The notes under the pieces: generated by a model
What the model was told of the DNA's origin: nothing
Seen by the model: only the letters and a program-made list of their open reading frames with translations
Database searches by the model: none
Shown here: positions 54,316-63,163 of the stretch, one piece after another
Numbering within the stretch: position 1 is the first letter of the stretch
How the letters are laid out: the number at the start of each line of letters is the position of its first letter
Origin: Nitrospina sp.
Lineage (GTDB): Bacteria > Nitrospinota > Nitrospinia > Nitrospinales > VA-1
DNA length: 64,000 nt
Assembly (NCBI GenBank): GCA_018673915.1
Contig: JABHBK010000034.1
Location: forward strand, 1-64,000
Reading direction: 5' to 3'
Position numbers and translations under genes: made by a program

Positions 54316-55179
54316 CTAGTGGTTTTTCTGCAAGAATTCTTTCAGCATGGGAAGAATGCTCTCATGGGCGTCTTCCACGACATAATGCCCGGCGTCTTCC
54401 ATCCGGTGCACCTCAGCCTGAGGGAAAATCTCCTGCCAACGTTTCAAGAAATTATCGTTAAAAACAAAATCATGCGCTCCCCAAATAATTTGAACGGGAT
54501 GATTTTGAAATAGTTTTAAATTCTTTTCGATATTTTGAATCACAGAATAACTCGGTGAATCAGGACTCATGGGAATATCCTGCACAAAGCGCAGATTGGC
54601 CACCCGGTTGGAAAAATTATCATAGGGCTCCAGATAACCCGCCTGGACTTCATCCGTCATTCTTTCTTGCTTGACGCAAGCCCAACGGATGGCCCCACGC
54701 GCAAAGGCGTTAAAACCACGAATTGCCAAGGCGCCGAACCCAGGGATGCGACAGAGGCTAAGACTTAATGGGATTTCATGCGATAAAAATGCCGCAGTAT
54801 TAAAAATCACTAATCTCCGGATTAGCTTAGGATGTCGAACCGCGAATCCCATACCGATGGCCCCGCCCCAGTCATGAACAACCAGAGTGATGTCATCCAA
54901 CCCGAGGTGATTCACCAACTGCTCAAGATTGTCGATGTGTTGGGAAAGCGTATAAGGATAATCTTGCGGCTTATCTGATTTCCCCATTCCCATATGGTCG
55001 GGCACCACACAACGATAAGAATCCTTAAGGCCTAGAATTAGATTACGATAATAAAATGACCAGGTAGGATTCCCATGAAGCATGAGAAGAGTTTCGCCAG
55101 CACCTTCATCCAAATAATGATAGCGGTGCTGCTCAAGTTGAAGAGAATTGGAAGAAAAGGGATAAAGCTTTGTCACCAC
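54316..55179 (-). CDS. oleB: OleB-type alpha/beta hydrolase (beta-lactone decarboxylase)
   Basis: 287 residues, haloalkane-dehalogenase-like alpha/beta fold. Oxyanion segment LLMLHGNPTWSFYYRN, nucleophile Asp103 in VVHDWGGAIG, and catalytic His265 in AGHYVVED. OleB proteins turn the beta-lactone made by OleC into a cis-olefin plus CO2. The assignment rests on the oleA gene overlapping its start by 7 bases (55173-55179) and on an HGNP/HDWGG dehalogenase core; a plain dehalogenase or epoxide hydrolase is the alternative. OleC and OleD are not in the window. Confidence 0.78.
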   Translation of the reverse strand: MVTKLYPFSSNSLQLEQHRYHYLDEGAGETLLMLHGNPTWSFYYRNLILGLKDSYRCVVPDHMGMGKSDKPQDYPYTLSQHIDNLEQLVNHLGLDDITLVVHDWGGAIGMGFAVRHPKLIRRLVIFNTAAFLSHEIPLSLSLCRIPGFGALAIRGFNAFARGAIRWACVKQERMTDEVQAGYLEPYDNFSNRVANLRFVQDIPMSPDSPSYSVIQNIEKNLKLFQNHPVQIIWGAHDFVFNDNFLKRWQEIFPQAEVHRMEDAGHYVVEDAHESILPMLKEFLQKNH

Positions 55180-56219
55180 TCAACACCCATCATCAAACAG
55201 TTAAGCCCGCTACCTATACCGAGTAGAGCAGCTTTGTCCCCCGATTTGAGCACTTTCTTTTCTATTCCCATGGCCAATGTGGTTGGGAGGGAAGCCGAGC
55301 CTGTATTGCCCAGAAACTCCAGAGTAGAGAAATCTTTTTCAGGGTCGAGCCCTACTTTTTCATACATAAGTTTTCGATGACCTTTGCCTACCTGATGGCA
55401 GAACACCCGGTTTATCTCTTCGTTGCTCCAGCCAAGCACTTCTCGGGTACGCGCCCAGGTTTTACCGGCAAGTCGACAACCCTCCTGCATCAAAGTTTCG
55501 GAATCGGTATCCATCAAGGGAGACCAATCTCCCCCTGCACCACTGTCATCATTACCGCGACATAAATGGTTGAACTGCGTCTCGGCCATGGAAACACCGC
55601 CCGCCAAACGATGGCCTTGCTTTGCGATCTTTTCATGGGCCAAGACAACACCCACAGCAGAAGAACCAATCGTCAATGAAGCGAAAGAGGACTTGGTCTC
55701 ATTCCGCGTAATATCTTTTCTGGCTAGCAATGTCTCAATCGTATTATTTACCAACGGACCCCCGTTTTCTCCAGCCACCACCAACCCTGCTTCAATTTGG
55801 TTTTGTTCGATCATACTGGCGATGATCGACATTCCGTTTAGCACACCAAGACATGCATTGGACACATCAAACACAAAGGCTTCGCCGGGAAGCTTCAGGT
55901 TATTATGAATAACAGAAGCCGTGGAAGGTTCCAGAAAATCCCGGCACACCGATGCTGAAATAAGGCAACCTATTTGTTCAGGGTCCACCCCGGATTGGGC
56001 AATGGCTTTTTCTCCGGCGAGAGTTGCTACCTCACTGGGCAGAACTTCCTTCCCCCAAAAGCGTCGTTCTCGAATACCGCTCATCAATTCTAAACGGCCT
56101 TGTGGAAGTTTTAGCCTGTCATAAAGAGGGGCCAACCGATCTTCAATTTCGACCGATGTAACGATATTTTCAGGCAGATGATAGGCTAAGCCTTCTATAT
56201 AAACTTTTTCAAAAAGCAT
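55173..56219 (-). CDS. oleA: OleA, thiolase-fold acyl-CoA condensing enzyme
   Basis: 348 residues. Head-to-head Claisen condensation of two acyl-CoAs to a 2-alkyl-3-ketoacid, first step of long-chain olefin synthesis. Catalytic Cys123 in SNACLGVLNG, the OleA-specific glutamate Glu97 in DFLEPSTAS (26 residues before the cysteine as in known OleA), His275 in CHQVG and Asn305 in GNTGSAS. The glutamate base separates OleA from FabH. GIGSGLNCLMMGVEW closes the protein. Start abuts the msbA stop codon (TAG-ATG) and it overlaps oleB by 7 bases, so the three genes are one operon. Confidence 0.9.
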   Translation of the reverse strand: MLFEKVYIEGLAYHLPENIVTSVEIEDRLAPLYDRLKLPQGRLELMSGIRERRFWGKEVLPSEVATLAGEKAIAQSGVDPEQIGCLISASVCRDFLEPSTASVIHNNLKLPGEAFVFDVSNACLGVLNGMSIIASMIEQNQIEAGLVVAGENGGPLVNNTIETLLARKDITRNETKSSFASLTIGSSAVGVVLAHEKIAKQGHRLAGGVSMAETQFNHLCRGNDDSGAGGDWSPLMDTDSETLMQEGCRLAGKTWARTREVLGWSNEEINRVFCHQVGKGHRKLMYEKVGLDPEKDFSTLEFLGNTGSASLPTTLAMGIEKKVLKSGDKAALLGIGSGLNCLMMGVEW

Positions 56220-57986
56220 CTAATTGGATTCCTCAATACCCTTATTATTTTCATCCACGTCTATGATCTGCATTTCATAATATTTTTGGTATAGTCCGCT
56301 ACTAGCAAGAAGGGATTCATGCGTTCCAGATTCTACAATCTTACCCTTATCCAGAACAATGATGCGGTTGGCATGCTTGATCGTTGAAAGCCGGTGAGCA
56401 ATTACGAAAGATGTTCGGTGTTCCATGAGATTATGCAAAGCATCCTGAACCAGCTTTTCCGACTCCGAATCCAGCGCAGAAGTGGCTTCATCCAAAACTA
56501 AAATTGGTGCATTCCTTAAAATAGCGCGGGCTATGGCAATCCTCTGGCGTTGCCCTCCTGAAAGTTTGACTCCCCGTTCTCCGATGATAGTGTCGTAGCC
56601 ATCATCTAAAGTCGACACGAAATAATCCACATGGGCGGCTTTAGCTGCTTCCATAATTTCATTGTGAGAGGCCTTTCTCTCACAGCCAAAAGATATATTG
56701 TTCCATATTGTATCGTTGAATAAAAATGTCTCCTGAGTTACCAGTGCTAACTGCTTCCTCAATGAATCCAATTTATAATCCTGAATAATTTTTCCATCTA
56801 TCAGGATGGTTCCGGAAGTCGCATCAAAAAACCGAAACAGCAGGTCTACCAACGTTGTCTTACCAGCACCGCTCATCCCAACAATTGCGATGATTTCCGA
56901 TTTTTTAACAGAAAGATTGATATCATTCAAAATCATGGTGCTTCTTGAAGGATAACGAAAAGAAACATTTTTAAACTCAATTCCATCCTTAACACCACGT
57001 AGTTCTATCTGGCCTTCCTGCATATTTTCCGCATCCTGATCGAGGATCCCAAACACTCTTTCCGCCCCGGCTAAAGCCGTTTGGATATTAGTGTAAGCTT
57101 TGAATAAAATTCGGATAGGTGCGTACATCATGAACAATGCAACGATGAATGCCAGAAATGTTCCTTGGCTGATCTCCTCATCCAAAACCTGATTCCCGCC
57201 ATACCACAAGATAAATGCAGCGCTGACAACTCCTAATACTTCCAGAAAAGGTGAAGTGATTTCCACATACTTGACATTTTTTTTCATCACTTTTAGGTAG
57301 CTGTCATTATGTAGGCGAAACTTCTCTATCTCTCTAGGCTCCATACCAAAAGCGCGGACAATTTTTATTCCCGAAAAGGACTCCAGAATCGTTGCGTTAA
57401 TATTTCCTAAAATCTCCTGCCCTTTTTTCGAAAAGTGACGTAGTTTCCGGGCAATATTGGAAACGGGAATGATCGTAACCGGAAAAATTATCAATGCCAT
57501 CACTGCCCAGTCCCATTTCATATAAAATACCCATATCAACAAACCTATCAACATCACACTGTTTTGCAGAATCTCTTTCATCATCCGCGTTACACTGGAC
57601 TGCATAATCGCGACATCATTATTGATTCGGGACATAAGTTGTCCTGTTTCATTGTCCTCAAAAAACTCAAAAGGAAGTGCGTGAATATGCGCAAACAACT
57701 TCCCTCTAAATTTCACCACCAGCTCCCATGAGATCCCAAAAATAATCAGATTTTGCGCATAGGTCAATATAGCCTTGACTACATATAAAGCGATCAAGGC
57801 GAGGGGAATAACCTTGAGCATGAAATAATCTTTTTCTACAAATATTTTATCGAAGGTTTTTTGAATAAGCGGAACAGGGGAAGTTGAAATAACACCTACA
57901 ATAACGGAAAAAAATATCGCCAAATACAGGCGGCCCATATAGGGTTTCAGGTGTAGAATTAAGCGCCTAAAAATTTGGAAGGACAT
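56220..57986 (-). CDS. msbA: MsbA-type lipid exporter (ABC transporter)
   Basis: 588 residues from ATG 57986. Six helices in the N-terminal ~300 residues (LAIFFSVIVGVISTSP, VIPLALIALYVVKAIL, VMALIIFPVTIIPVSN, FLAFIVALFMMYAPIRIL) followed by the ATPase: Walker A GMSGAGKTTL, signature KLSGGQRQRIAIARA, Walker B ILVLDEATSALD, H-loop IAHRLST. Half transporter flipping lipid A core or similar lipids at the inner membrane. It is directly followed by oleA, which suggests that the transported lipid could be an olefin-related or long-chain product, but this is only inferred. Confidence 0.9.
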   Translation of the reverse strand: MSFQIFRRLILHLKPYMGRLYLAIFFSVIVGVISTSPVPLIQKTFDKIFVEKDYFMLKVIPLALIALYVVKAILTYAQNLIIFGISWELVVKFRGKLFAHIHALPFEFFEDNETGQLMSRINNDVAIMQSSVTRMMKEILQNSVMLIGLLIWVFYMKWDWAVMALIIFPVTIIPVSNIARKLRHFSKKGQEILGNINATILESFSGIKIVRAFGMEPREIEKFRLHNDSYLKVMKKNVKYVEITSPFLEVLGVVSAAFILWYGGNQVLDEEISQGTFLAFIVALFMMYAPIRILFKAYTNIQTALAGAERVFGILDQDAENMQEGQIELRGVKDGIEFKNVSFRYPSRSTMILNDINLSVKKSEIIAIVGMSGAGKTTLVDLLFRFFDATSGTILIDGKIIQDYKLDSLRKQLALVTQETFLFNDTIWNNISFGCERKASHNEIMEAAKAAHVDYFVSTLDDGYDTIIGERGVKLSGGQRQRIAIARAILRNAPILVLDEATSALDSESEKLVQDALHNLMEHRTSFVIAHRLSTIKHANRIIVLDKGKIVESGTHESLLASSGLYQKYYEMQIIDVDENNKGIEESN

Positions 57987-58030
57987 TAGCCACCAGAGTA
58001 TCGGGAGCAATCAGGGAAGAAAATAGCAGG

Positions 58031-58080
58031 AAAAAGCCCCTGGAATTGAACCCGATTCAATATCCAGGGGCTAAAAAAAA
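58031..58080 (-). terminator. strong intrinsic terminator of the USP gene
   Basis: On the minus strand AGCCCCTGGA and TCCAGGGGCT form a 10-bp stem, extended by AUUGAA/UUCAAU with a one-base bulge, then a T tract. Lies 23 bases after the USP stop codon. Confidence 0.85.
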
Positions 58081-58103: not shown

Positions 58104-60077
58104 CTAGGCTTTCACTTCTTTCTGCGGTATGAAGTCATCCAGGCCCGCACCATTTTTAATGGCATCTTCCATCATCTTCACGGACTCCCGAATTCCTTCT
58201 TCACAGACGTCCAGAGAAATATCCCGGATATCGTTTTGCGAGCACCAGGCCATCACCCGGTTTTGGGTATTGTCCCGCATAAATCCTTTAGGGACACGCT
58301 CCAACCGTTCCAAAGCTTCTGGCGACCAGTTGAAATCTTCGGCATTCAAAGCAGCCCCAATACTGAGGATGTCGCCCGGAATTCCTTCACTGGCCCCATT
58401 GTCATTGTCATCTTTTTTAATTTTCTCATTCAGGATTTTATCGAGGAATGCCGCAGAAACCGTATTGACCTTCTGAACCCGAGCATTTTTCTCAACACGA
58501 GCATGGGCTTTCCTTCTCAAATGCCCCTGAGGGAATGAGTTAAGCTTGTCCAATGCCTCCTGTGTCCAGGATACTTGCACACCATCAGGCAAAGTTGTAA
58601 AGGTAGTGGAATCCTGAGCCTCTGCTTCTGTAGCTTGGTACTCTTCCTTGTTAACGGGAAGCAAGCGTTCCGGACCCGCATTACAAACAGTACACTTAAC
58701 AACGTCACCTTTGTAAAAAGTATTACAACTGGTACATTTCAGTGTGATCTCTTCTGGAGGCTTACCAGCATGAGCTTCTGCCATTTCTTCCTTAAGCATG
58801 CCCAGGCCTTCCGGATTATTCGGATCCATCCCTTCATTCTTCATTCTCTCACCAATTGCAGACATAGCCTGCATCGCACCAGCAGGCAAAATCTCCTGCA
58901 CCGCTTCGGTGATAACACTGGAAGTGATCATGCTATGGCCCCGCTCCAACGCATAACGCAGGATCGCGGAAGTCGCCATCGGTCTTACAAATCCAGGAAT
59001 TTTCTTCAATCGCTCTTTGCCTTCAGCAGTCCACTCAATGCTTTCTTCTGCCTGCATATCTATCGGCGGCTTAAATACTTTACTGGAAAGCAGGATGTTG
59101 CAGGGAACGAGACGTAATAGGTTCTCGGTATTGCCTCCAATATCCATATCCGGAGCACTGTGAACACCGATCCGTCCCAAAATCAACAAATACGGGTTCT
59201 CTTCCCTTGCGTATTGCAAAACTTTTTCGAAAACCTTGCCATCCAAAAGACGAATGGTGCATTCAATATCTTCTTCTTCACAGACCTTCCGGGAAATCTC
59301 CAGATGAGCCTGATAGATTTTTGCCAATCCTTTATCGATGATGTCTTCATGAAGCTTTTCCTGTTGCTCAAACTTGAAAACTTTGGAAGCTTCGCGTGAC
59401 AATACACCGGTCAGACTGTTAAACATTGCATAGTGAAAGTAGGGATCGAAGGTAGAGATGACTTCCAGAGGCCGATTCAACTTTTTGGCCATTTCGATCC
59501 CCGTCATCAACCCACCAAAAGAATGACCACTACCATCCACTGCAACCACAATCTTTCCACTGGAAGGCCGGTCGTCATGAATCTCCGGGCAATGCTTCAC
59601 AATCAGCATATCTTTGTTAGAACGACGAATTACTCTTTCTGCAACGGACCCAATCAAGCTGTCTTTAATGGCACCAAGCCCCAATGCACCCATAATTACC
59701 AGGTCGTACGGGGATTCTTTGATATCCCGAACCAGCTCTGTCCAGTTACGCCCTTCAAGGGATTTACCCACAAAAGGAATGTCCAGTTCTTTACATTTTT
59801 CTTTGGGAACATCCAGATAGGAATCACTGATAACTTCCATTCCTTTGGTGATCAACTGATCATGAATATTCCGTTGCTTTTCTAATTCCTCTTCATCCTG
59901 ATATTCCTCAGGAAGCCCGCTCTCCATTTGGCGAAACCGAACATCATGCATTTTAGCGGCATAAACATGGCTTGCAGAAATGGTCGTATCTGATCCTTTG
60001 GCGAACTCAAGCGCCAAGTCAACACAGGCGTTGGAGTAATCAGAATTATCTACCGGTATATAAATATTCTTAAACAT
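58104..60077 (-). CDS. tandem universal stress protein fused to PCP_red-like domains and a zinc ribbon
   Basis: 657 residues, no signal peptide. Order: USP domain 1 (1-162) with the ATP motif GALGLGAIKDSLIGSVAERV; USP domain 2 (174-333) with the related GRIGVHSAP motif; a PCP_red-like region (347-395, WTAEGKERLKKIPGFVR) resembling the C-terminal part of the light-independent protochlorophyllide reductase B subunit; a zinc ribbon with C448, C451, C462 and C465; and two more WxxEAxxxLxxxP copies (502-552 and 582-640). No other photosynthesis gene is present. Function is not known; it may bind nucleotide and a metal or tetrapyrrole. Its promoter is at 60220-60247. Confidence 0.82.
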   Translation of the reverse strand: MFKNIYIPVDNSDYSNACVDLALEFAKGSDTTISASHVYAAKMHDVRFRQMESGLPEEYQDEEELEKQRNIHDQLITKGMEVISDSYLDVPKEKCKELDIPFVGKSLEGRNWTELVRDIKESPYDLVIMGALGLGAIKDSLIGSVAERVIRRSNKDMLIVKHCPEIHDDRPSSGKIVVAVDGSGHSFGGLMTGIEMAKKLNRPLEVISTFDPYFHYAMFNSLTGVLSREASKVFKFEQQEKLHEDIIDKGLAKIYQAHLEISRKVCEEEDIECTIRLLDGKVFEKVLQYAREENPYLLILGRIGVHSAPDMDIGGNTENLLRLVPCNILLSSKVFKPPIDMQAEESIEWTAEGKERLKKIPGFVRPMATSAILRYALERGHSMITSSVITEAVQEILPAGAMQAMSAIGERMKNEGMDPNNPEGLGMLKEEMAEAHAGKPPEEITLKCTSCNTFYKGDVVKCTVCNAGPERLLPVNKEEYQATEAEAQDSTTFTTLPDGVQVSWTQEALDKLNSFPQGHLRRKAHARVEKNARVQKVNTVSAAFLDKILNEKIKKDDNDNGASEGIPGDILSIGAALNAEDFNWSPEALERLERVPKGFMRDNTQNRVMAWCSQNDIRDISLDVCEEGIRESVKMMEDAIKNGAGLDDFIPQKEVKA

Positions 60078-60434
60078 GGGGTGAAGTTCTCCCTTCCCGA
60101 AACCTGGGATAGTTAGTTTTGAAAAATTGGAATTCTAATATTCTAAAATCACAGAGTTTAAAAACCCTGCAACCAATGGCGGAATCAAGTACTATCAAAC
60201 CTTAATATAGTCGTTGGGAATTCTAGCAAATTATTCAATAGTGTCAACAAGAATTAAACCAAAATAATATTGTAATTGTTGATATTTTAAGAGTTTAAGC
60301 GAATATACCTAAAATAACCTTATTGGATTAAACCACCGACCACTTATCGATCAACCTAATAAATGGACGGCCTCACACCTCCACTAACAAAAAGAATCAG
60401 CAAATACCACCTAAACTCATAAATCTAAACAATA
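60078..60434. other. non-coding gap between USP and glycosyltransferase genes
   Basis: 357 bases, AT-rich, without supported ORF. It holds the USP promoter (60220-60247). An imperfect repeat TCAACAAGAATT (60244-60255) / AATTGTTGA (60274-60282) overlaps the -35 box and could be an operator. Nothing else was recognised. Confidence 0.5.
60220..60247 (-). promoter_or_regulatory. sigma70 promoter of the USP gene
   Basis: On the minus strand TTGACA (60247-60242), 16-base spacer, TAGAAT (60225-60220), predicting a leader of about 136 bases. Confidence 0.6.
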
Positions 60435-61641: not shown

Positions 61642-61765
61642 TCGTATAGCAAGAAATACAGCAACGCTGAAACTTAGAATTGATCTTTTATTCCATATAA
61701 TTTCCCCAATCGACATCCCGATCTTGCATACTCATTTCAGTCAGGGACCTTAAGCGGAGAGCTTG

Positions 61766-63163
61766 ATGCTTTTTAACCACAAAGACGAAGTAACCCACCA
61801 ACTCAAGAATATCGTCACTCAGGATAATGGCGGTGTAAAAATAGATAACGCAGAAAAACTTCGAGGTGATGTTCTCGATCAACTGATCTTGAATGCAGTC
61901 CTTAATCCTTCAGCAGAAATAAAAGGACTGAGCCGGTTCCTCATCAAATCGGCCGCACAGGAGTTGGGCATCGTCACTTCATCGATTCAAGGGCTCTACG
62001 ACGCCCGCGGCCGGGGCGAAGTAAAAGGATTCACCGTTCCCGCGCTCAACATCCGCGGCCTGCCCTATGAGCTATGCCGGGCCATTTTCCGCACCGCCAT
62101 CAAAACCAATGCCGGGGCGTTTATTTTTGAACTGGCTAAATCGGAAATGGGTTACACCTTCCAAAAACCACAAGAACTTTCCACCGTTATCCTTACTGCG
62201 GCCATTAAAGAAGGCTTTACCGGACCGGTCTTCATCCAAGGCGATCATTTTCAAGTCAACGCTAAAAATTACGCTCTAGATCCCGCAAAGGAAGTTGCCG
62301 GACTGAAAGAATTGATCAAAAATGGCATCGCTGGCGGATTCTATAATATAGATATCGACACCTCCACATTGGTCGACCTCAGCAAAGACACCGTCGTCGA
62401 ACAGCAACGAGCTAACTTTGAAGTCGGTGTAGAACTCACTCAACATGTTCGTGAACTGGAACCAGAAAATATCACCATTTCTGTTGGGGGTGAGATCGGC
62501 GAAGTGGGAAAAGAAAACAGCAACGAGCAGGAATTAAAAGCCTACCTCGACAACTTTAACGAACTGCTGGAAAAGACACGAAGCGGATCCACGACCATCA
62601 GTAAAATATCCATCCAAACCGGAACCTCGCACGGCGGCGTGCCTCTCCCTGATGGAACCGTGGCCGATGTGAACCTCGATTTTGATACGCTGGAAAACCT
62701 GTCACGCATTTCCCGTGAAGATTATGGATTGGCGGGAGCCGTCCAGCACGGTGCGTCCACCCTGCCCCAGGACCTATTCAACAAGTTCCCGGAACTGGAA
62801 ACGGCAGAAATTCACCTGGCAACCGATTTCCAGAATATGATTTACGGAAGCGATCTTTTTCCCGCCAGCTTTAAAGAAGAAATCTACACCCACCTGCGCA
62901 AAAAATTTACGGGAGAGAAAAAATCCGGCGAGACAGACGAACAGTTCATCTACAAAACCCGCAAAAAAGGTTTTGGTGAATTCAAAAAAGAGTTTTGGGG
63001 ACTGTCTAACGAGATTCGCCAAGGAATCGGCAAAGAACTGGAAGGCAAAATGGATTTCCTGTTTGACAAACTAGCCGTACAAAACACCAAAGAGTCTGTC
63101 GACAAAACCGTAGAACAAGTAGCTATCAAACCCAACCTTGAAGATGAAATTTCCGCCTGCTAA
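61766..63163 (+). CDS. class II fructose-bisphosphate aldolase family protein, long form
   Basis: 465 residues from ATG 61766 (GGAG six bases before; the TTG at 61763 is ignored). Class II, zinc-dependent aldolase fold: substrate-side FTVPALNIRG (89-98), catalytic Asp160 with zinc-ligand His161 in VFIQGDHF, GGEIGEVG with Glu243, zinc His289 in QTGTSHGG, and AVQHGAS with His328. It is longer than classic FbaA (~345-360), with an N-terminal extension of about 85 residues (QLILNAVLNPSAEIKGLS) and a long C-terminal tail. Likely splits or forms fructose-1,6-bisphosphate, pairing with fbp; a different sugar bisphosphate or tagatose-type substrate cannot be excluded. Confidence 0.8.
   Translation: MLFNHKDEVTHQLKNIVTQDNGGVKIDNAEKLRGDVLDQLILNAVLNPSAEIKGLSRFLIKSAAQELGIVTSSIQGLYDARGRGEVKGFTVPALNIRGLPYELCRAIFRTAIKTNAGAFIFELAKSEMGYTFQKPQELSTVILTAAIKEGFTGPVFIQGDHFQVNAKNYALDPAKEVAGLKELIKNGIAGGFYNIDIDTSTLVDLSKDTVVEQQRANFEVGVELTQHVRELEPENITISVGGEIGEVGKENSNEQELKAYLDNFNELLEKTRSGSTTISKISIQTGTSHGGVPLPDGTVADVNLDFDTLENLSRISREDYGLAGAVQHGASTLPQDLFNKFPELETAEIHLATDFQNMIYGSDLFPASFKEEIYTHLRKKFTGEKKSGETDEQFIYKTRKKGFGEFKKEFWGLSNEIRQGIGKELEGKMDFLFDKLAVQNTKESVDKTVEQVAIKPNLEDEISAC

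Follow-up and report, generated by a model that had tools for sequence, protein, structure and literature searches.

Why should a bacterium not known to make chlorophyll join universal stress protein (USP) domains to PCP_red, a domain named for chlorophyll synthesis? The question is raised by a minus-strand gene at positions 58104–60077 of the 64,000-nucleotide stretch of Nitrospina sp. DNA analysed here (the window), which has an ATG start, a TAG stop and an open frame encoding 657 aa. Pfam domains and a cysteine motif together give the protein the domain order USP-USP-PCP_red-(Cys)4-PCP_red-PCP_red, with no further Pfam domain. This order, read in a first-pass annotation that called the cysteine motif a zinc ribbon, is confirmed by Usp in two stretches (2.8e-33, 115.9 bits against a curated cut-off of 24), by PCP_red in three (3.5e-27, 94.6 bits against 32.5) and by four Cys between residues 448 and 465; the outcome that the annotation had allowed for, namely that profiles PF08369 and PF00582 would find USP only, is excluded. 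Downstream, an intrinsic terminator hairpin (58035–58072, minus strand; −30.3 kcal/mol, z −4.14), equalled by 0 of 200 shuffles and rightly called very strong at first pass, separates the gene from an MsbA-like gene. Upstream, the proposed strong promoter is present as a single sigma-70-like match (TTGACA-16-TAGAAT with TG; 60220–60247, minus strand; 11 of 12 matches; ~145 bp upstream of the ATG), but promoter-like sites are no more numerous than in shuffles.

The USP pair has the residues expected of nucleotide binding. USP domain 1 (residues 1–161; 59595–60077, minus strand) has, invariant in 54 aligned sequences, D10 and the ATP motif G130-2x-G133-9x-G143, the residue after G143 being S or T in the sequences displayed; with the motif and an Asp after the first strand both present, the domain is predicted to belong to the ATP-binding USP subclass. 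USP domain 2 (residues 175–331; 59085–59555, minus strand) retains D181 and G301-2x-G304-9x-G314 followed by G or S, a nearly intact motif. Further invariants in the 54 sequences are H37, Y39, H44, R47, F48 and Q50-M51-E52 in domain 1, which are family-specific, and D211-P212, H215 and Q239-E240 in domain 2. The AF2 model aligns with the tandem USP 3cis and with ATP-bound 3ab8 (TTHA0350), with TM by target of 0.65–0.83. The protein is like tandem USPs (Rv2623, TTHA0350, UspE; PF00582) in having two USP folds per chain, but differs from them in having PCP_red domains and (Cys)4 C-terminal to the pair, in the extra family-wide invariants H37, H44, Q50-M51-E52, D211-P212 and H215, and in the linkage of its gene to that of a radical SAM heme-type enzyme.

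Profile analysis recovers PCP_red at exactly the residues where PCP_red-like units had first been placed. Domain 1 (residues 347–395; 58893–59039, minus strand) scores 54.3 bits (E 5.4e-14), above the curated cut-off by itself, whereas domain 2 (residues 502–552; 58422–58574, minus strand; 29.0 bits, E 4.4e-6) and domain 3 (residues 582–640; 58158–58334, minus strand; 23.7 bits, E 1.9e-4) pass the cut-off only within the whole protein, the E-values of the three single segments being scaled to one genome. Domain 1 is kept by every aligned family member, with W349 and P361 invariant in 54 sequences. Structure prediction, proposed at first pass as a check, yields a short three-helix pattern common to all three segments (AF2, mean pLDDT 80) but leaves the domain arrangement undefined (pLDDT 68.7 then 80.4, and pTM 0.52 then 0.54, in successive runs). 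A profile built from 17 PCP_red domains has clear matches in the PDB exclusively to solved structures of PCP_red and to B subunits of DPOR (2l09 at 1.3e-15, 2kru at 1.6e-13, also 2xdq, 3aek and 2ynm; range 1e-10 to 1e-15), and this recovery, together with the Pfam scores, leads us to reject a chance or compositional match. Across the domain alignment no His, Cys or Met is conserved, W and P being the only invariant residues, and for want of a conserved ligand residue we reject axial ligation of heme iron by PCP_red.

The domain is homologous to that of DPOR subunit B (BchB/ChlB; PF08369; NMR structures 2kru and 2l09) and has the same W..EA..L...P.F.R pattern, but the nitrogenase-like body of BchB is missing from USP-USP-PCP_red. 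The DPOR subunit B model TIGR01278 gives 34.5 bits against a cut-off of 490.35, with only the C-terminal 51–75 positions matching. No BchB above cut-off is found in the window's own genome, and we reject the possibility that the gene is a remnant of a DPOR or phototrophy cluster, there being no BchB body anywhere in that genome.

Between the first and second PCP_red domains, the knuckles C448, C451, C462 and C465 (58683–58736, minus strand) form a putative rubredoxin-like or zinc-ribbon CX2CX10CX2C site. All four Cys are retained in 40 of the 41 aligned orthologues that cover the region. Because orthologues match RUBY_RBDX, the rubrerythrin rubredoxin-like domain (8.7e-6 and 2.4e-8; above cut-off in L083, just below it in N. 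defluvii, no match in the 657-aa window protein), iron is as plausible as zinc.

USP-USP-PCP_red is a conserved family. The gene is present in 62 of 77 genomes of the window's phylum, Nitrospinota, and the long form occurs in all four families of the window's order at 66–98% identity. Since the architecture is conserved at this level across the order, it is no artefact, and conservation through the whole order likewise leads us to reject a strain-specific horizontal oddity. Other families of the class have proteins from ~400 aa (USP-USP-PCP_red) to 773 aa, the largest with PCP_red in five copies, and the number of copies per chain in the family is one to five. Relatives in named genomes, drawn from the best 80 of 419, come from Nitrospira defluvii, N. 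moscoviensis, many other Nitrospirota, Thermodesulfovibrionia, and deltaproteobacterial and Chloroflexi MAGs; three PCP_red domains plus (Cys)4 are found at 63 of the 75 full-length loci, and a single PCP_red at 9. In a phylogeny of the core that all forms share, long forms from Nitrospira group with those from Nitrospinales (97/91), separate from Thermodesulfovibrionia and from the short forms of f9 Nitrospinota (100/100), a topology that cuts across phyla and suggests transfer or deep paralogy.

What the protein works with is suggested by a second PCP_red protein, a radical SAM protein (rSAM-PCP_red) that in most lineages is encoded beside it. In 61 of the 75 named-genome loci the radical SAM gene is the next gene, frequently overlapping; in Nitrospira the gene after USP-PCP_red overlaps it or almost touches it, and its product is a radical SAM/SPASM protein that ends in PCP_red (L111:7112-8518). 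Among 148 Nitrospirota genomes, 49 have both genes, 2 have USP-PCP_red alone, 6 have rSAM-PCP_red alone and 91 have neither (Fisher 7e-30, the relatedness of the genomes being ignored), and in 48 of the 49 with both, rSAM-PCP_red is the adjacent downstream gene, in the same orientation. The pairing is found also in Thermodesulfovibrionia (L118), in f9 Nitrospinota and in the phylum of G080 (L229, L231, L249), and a Chloroflexi MAG (L206) has a single run of USP-PCP_red, Mrp ATPase, ribbon-PCP_red and rSAM-PCP_red, with two genes between the pair. In Nitrospinales the two genes are apart, and the window's genome retains rSAM-PCP_red (C73). As a separate observation, the Chloroflexi protein (L114/L206) has an extra N-terminal 230 aa before USP-USP-PCP_red, for which there is no NCBIfam or Pfam match, and a separate ORF that looks similar to this extra domain adjoins the gene pair in L201.

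The best NCBIfam models for rSAM-PCP_red are NirJ2 (TIGR04055) and AhbD (TIGR04545), at 302–345 bits, below the cut-offs of 500. Nothing adjacent to the USP gene reaches the equivalog cut-off for AhbD; nearest are the rSAM-PCP_red proteins of f9 Nitrospinota (456–459 bits to TIGR04545, cut-off 500) and an unfused protein that adjoins the gene pair in L229 (493.5 bits). All 72 rSAM-PCP_red proteins examined contain CX2CX5CX2CX17C, a motif that has been described at the C-terminal end of AhbD (PMC10452713). AhbD converts Fe-coproporphyrin III to heme b, with an electron proposed to go to an external acceptor (PMC10452713). The partner, and not the USP protein, has the radical SAM and SPASM regions in common with AhbD and NirJ2, and this motif in common with AhbD, but differs from both in its additional C-terminal PCP_red and its scores under the equivalog cut-offs. 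In L204, rSAM-PCP_red adjoins a gene for protoporphyrinogen oxidase (TIGR00562, 271 bits, cut-off 97.85).

From these results we conclude that a functional link of USP-USP-PCP_red to AhbD-type enzymes is well supported by gene order and co-occurrence, and is the best-supported step of the interpretation. Tetrapyrrole binding by the protein, suggested at first pass, is predicted; the neighbours of the gene and the fusions of PCP_red lend it strong, if indirect, support. The conserved partner is of the AhbD/NirJ2 kind and itself bears PCP_red, which makes heme or coproheme the most likely tetrapyrrole. Redox sensing, also suggested at first pass, may be served by the rubredoxin-like (Cys)4 site. 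We give even chances to the reading that USP-USP-PCP_red acts in the cytoplasm as an accessory to, or regulator of, oxygen-independent heme synthesis of the AhbD type. According to this reading, PCP_red would hold or transfer an iron porphyrin (coproheme or heme), as suggested by its company and by DPOR, or alternatively would dock the USP protein to the rSAM protein and so enable porphyrin transfer; the nucleotide state of the USP pair, as its intact motifs suggest, would gate the porphyrin step; and, as a guess, proteins with (Cys)4 may use it to accept the electron that AhbD-type catalysis would have to pass to an external acceptor. We count in favour of a heme role that three genomes tested from Nitrospinota families f7 and f8, in which no PCP_red was found, are all without the USP gene too. 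We count against it that the partner scores below the cut-offs of the AhbD and NirJ2 models, which leaves its reaction putative, that the genes are apart in Nitrospinales, that PCP_red has no conserved ligand residue and that the predicted arrangement is undefined (pTM 0.54).

The distribution of PCP_red in other proteins bears on what the domain does. PCP_red proteins occur in 46 of 46 genomes of the window's family, usually with 9 domains, and PCP_red in the absence of chlorophyll is therefore not peculiar to the USP gene. The window's genome encodes five PCP_red proteins with 9 domains: USP-USP-PCP_red, a (zinc-)ribbon-PCP_red encoded next to an Mrp/NUBPL-type ATPase, a PCP_red-HemQ-like protein, radical SAM-PCP_red and a triple PCP_red. 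The HemQ/chlorite-dismutase-like protein carries PCP_red N-terminally (L039:9041-10000, minus strand; C23; Chlor_dismutase 3.6e-57), and the His of its EH motif and its YP motif look retained. In the phylum of G080, a fusion of PCP_red to siroheme-type NIR_SIR (1.5e-23), small (~270 aa) and with 4Fe-4S, is common (L234:847-1641, L236, L227 and others); many genomes there have one PCP_red match each, and those read are NIR_SIR fusions. One f9 Nitrospinota protein (L200:6182-7609, minus strand), encoded beside an ArsR-type regulator, has the order PCP_red-rubredoxin-PCP_red-PCP_red-Haem_oxygenas_2 (7.7e-31), the last being a heme-oxygenase-like iron enzyme. The recognised enzyme co-domains of PCP_red are of tetrapyrrole-acting types, the heme-oxygenase-like one being uncertain, as its fold has other substrates. 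The remark that the window has no other pigment gene holds for phototrophy but overlooks heme.

These same proteins give rise to the main rival explanation, that PCP_red has no ligand of its own and serves for homotypic contacts or protein docking, joining USP-PCP_red, rSAM-PCP_red, ribbon-PCP_red with Mrp, and HemQ-PCP_red in one complex, with the USP pair as a nucleotide-dependent scaffold. The spread of 9 domains over five distinct PCP_red proteins in one genome, chains with up to four or five copies (four in L193, five in L083), the lack of a conserved ligand residue, and the position, in three lineages (L038, L192, L206), of the ribbon-PCP_red gene beside one for an Mrp/NUBPL-type P-loop ATPase would all be accommodated by docking; lone PCP_red-enzyme fusions in PCP_red-poor genomes, such as the NIR_SIR fusions in the phylum of G080, have no homotypic partner there and argue against it. 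We regard docking without a ligand as rather unlikely.

Ferrochelatase and a HemY/CgoX-type oxidase are encoded in many of these genomes, side by side in Nitrospira, and canonical HemN in only 1 of 15, a combination that we take to fit a coproporphyrin-dependent route. (Heme synthesis routes are set out in PMC7242693.) A HemQ-type protein is unfused in Nitrospira, so that AhbD may be unneeded for heme there; it carries PCP_red in those Nitrospinales that were read, and several lineages with rSAM-PCP_red, for example G079, lack it. Neither ferrochelatase nor protoporphyrinogen oxidase was found in the window's genome, a 92% complete assembly; relatives have them, and the absence is possibly due to incompleteness.

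USPs are commonly regulatory, and the protein might instead be a regulator that reads heme supply through PCP_red and iron or redox state through (Cys)4, and that switches respiration or nitrite oxidation in starvation. Such a sensor would suit a gene that forms a transcription unit by itself in the window, flanked by a promoter-like site and a strong terminator, and a (Cys)4 long form common to two nitrite-oxidiser lineages whose proteins group at 97/91. We consider it improbable: USP-USP-PCP_red has no output domain, and the gene that adjoins or overlaps it in most lineages is a radical SAM gene of biosynthetic type, a neighbour more in keeping with an enzyme partnership than with global regulation. 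Less probable still is an ordinary stress protein, as its USP annotation would have it, with PCP_red as a passive tail of no tetrapyrrole role and the radical SAM linkage as an inherited neighbourhood. A literature search gave no biochemical data on PCP_red outside DPOR, which leaves room for a passive tail; set against it are the invariant W and P of PCP_red domain 1 in every aligned member, the presence of the same domain in the partner, and the recurrence of the linkage across several phylum-level groups.

Beyond a role in AhbD-type heme synthesis, we tentatively propose a wider, and doubtful, generalisation: that PCP_red may be, rather than a chlorophyll domain, a general tetrapyrrole substrate-handling module, of which that of DPOR is one case, and that in nitrite oxidisers and related bacteria USP-USP-PCP_red may be an ATP-gated porphyrin chaperone or electron-transfer partner of a radical SAM heme synthase that bears PCP_red, an accessory of a kind previously undescribed. 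Our literature search on PCP_red with USP, Nitrospina or Nitrospira found nothing, including no paper on USP-USP-PCP_red, and the family and its pairing with an AhbD/NirJ2-like protein are apparently undescribed. If the proposal is true, a domain named for chlorophyll synthesis would be part of a wider tetrapyrrole toolkit in non-chlorophyll organisms, with partners of heme- and siroheme-handling kinds; universal stress proteins, for many of which no client is known, would gain a concrete biosynthetic one; and AhbD-type heme synthesis in Nitrospira and Nitrospina would gain candidates for its missing parts, a porphyrin carrier and an electron acceptor. Nitrospira and Nitrospina are major nitrite oxidisers, and heme proteins underlie their energy metabolism.

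Other genes near USP-USP-PCP_red differ among lineages. In Nitrospira, upstream of the pair (L111:3183-4838), lie genes for a B12-type radical SAM protein (slr0320-like, 446 bits, below cut-off) and a UbiE-type methyltransferase. MetK and AhcY genes stand divergent beside USP-PCP_red in one Nitrospirota group (L101, L108, L117 and others), and AhcY is also ~4 kb from the USP gene in the window, perhaps for supply of SAM to the radical SAM partner. Downstream of the terminator, the window (54316–57989, minus strand) encodes an ABC transporter similar to MsbA, a protein of KAS III type (PRK09258, 448 bits) and a hydrolase resembling haloalkane dehalogenase, in a gene order conserved across Nitrospinales; the arrangement presumably recalls OleA-OleB of olefin synthesis. 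We reject an operon of the USP gene with these MsbA/OleA-like genes, as the strong terminator intervenes and the neighbours in other phyla are different. On the other side, nearly all Nitrospinales read have, close to the USP gene and divergent from it, a gene for a 466-aa protein (61763–63163, plus strand) that is fructose-bisphosphate-aldolase-like by eye and has no NCBIfam match at 1e-30.
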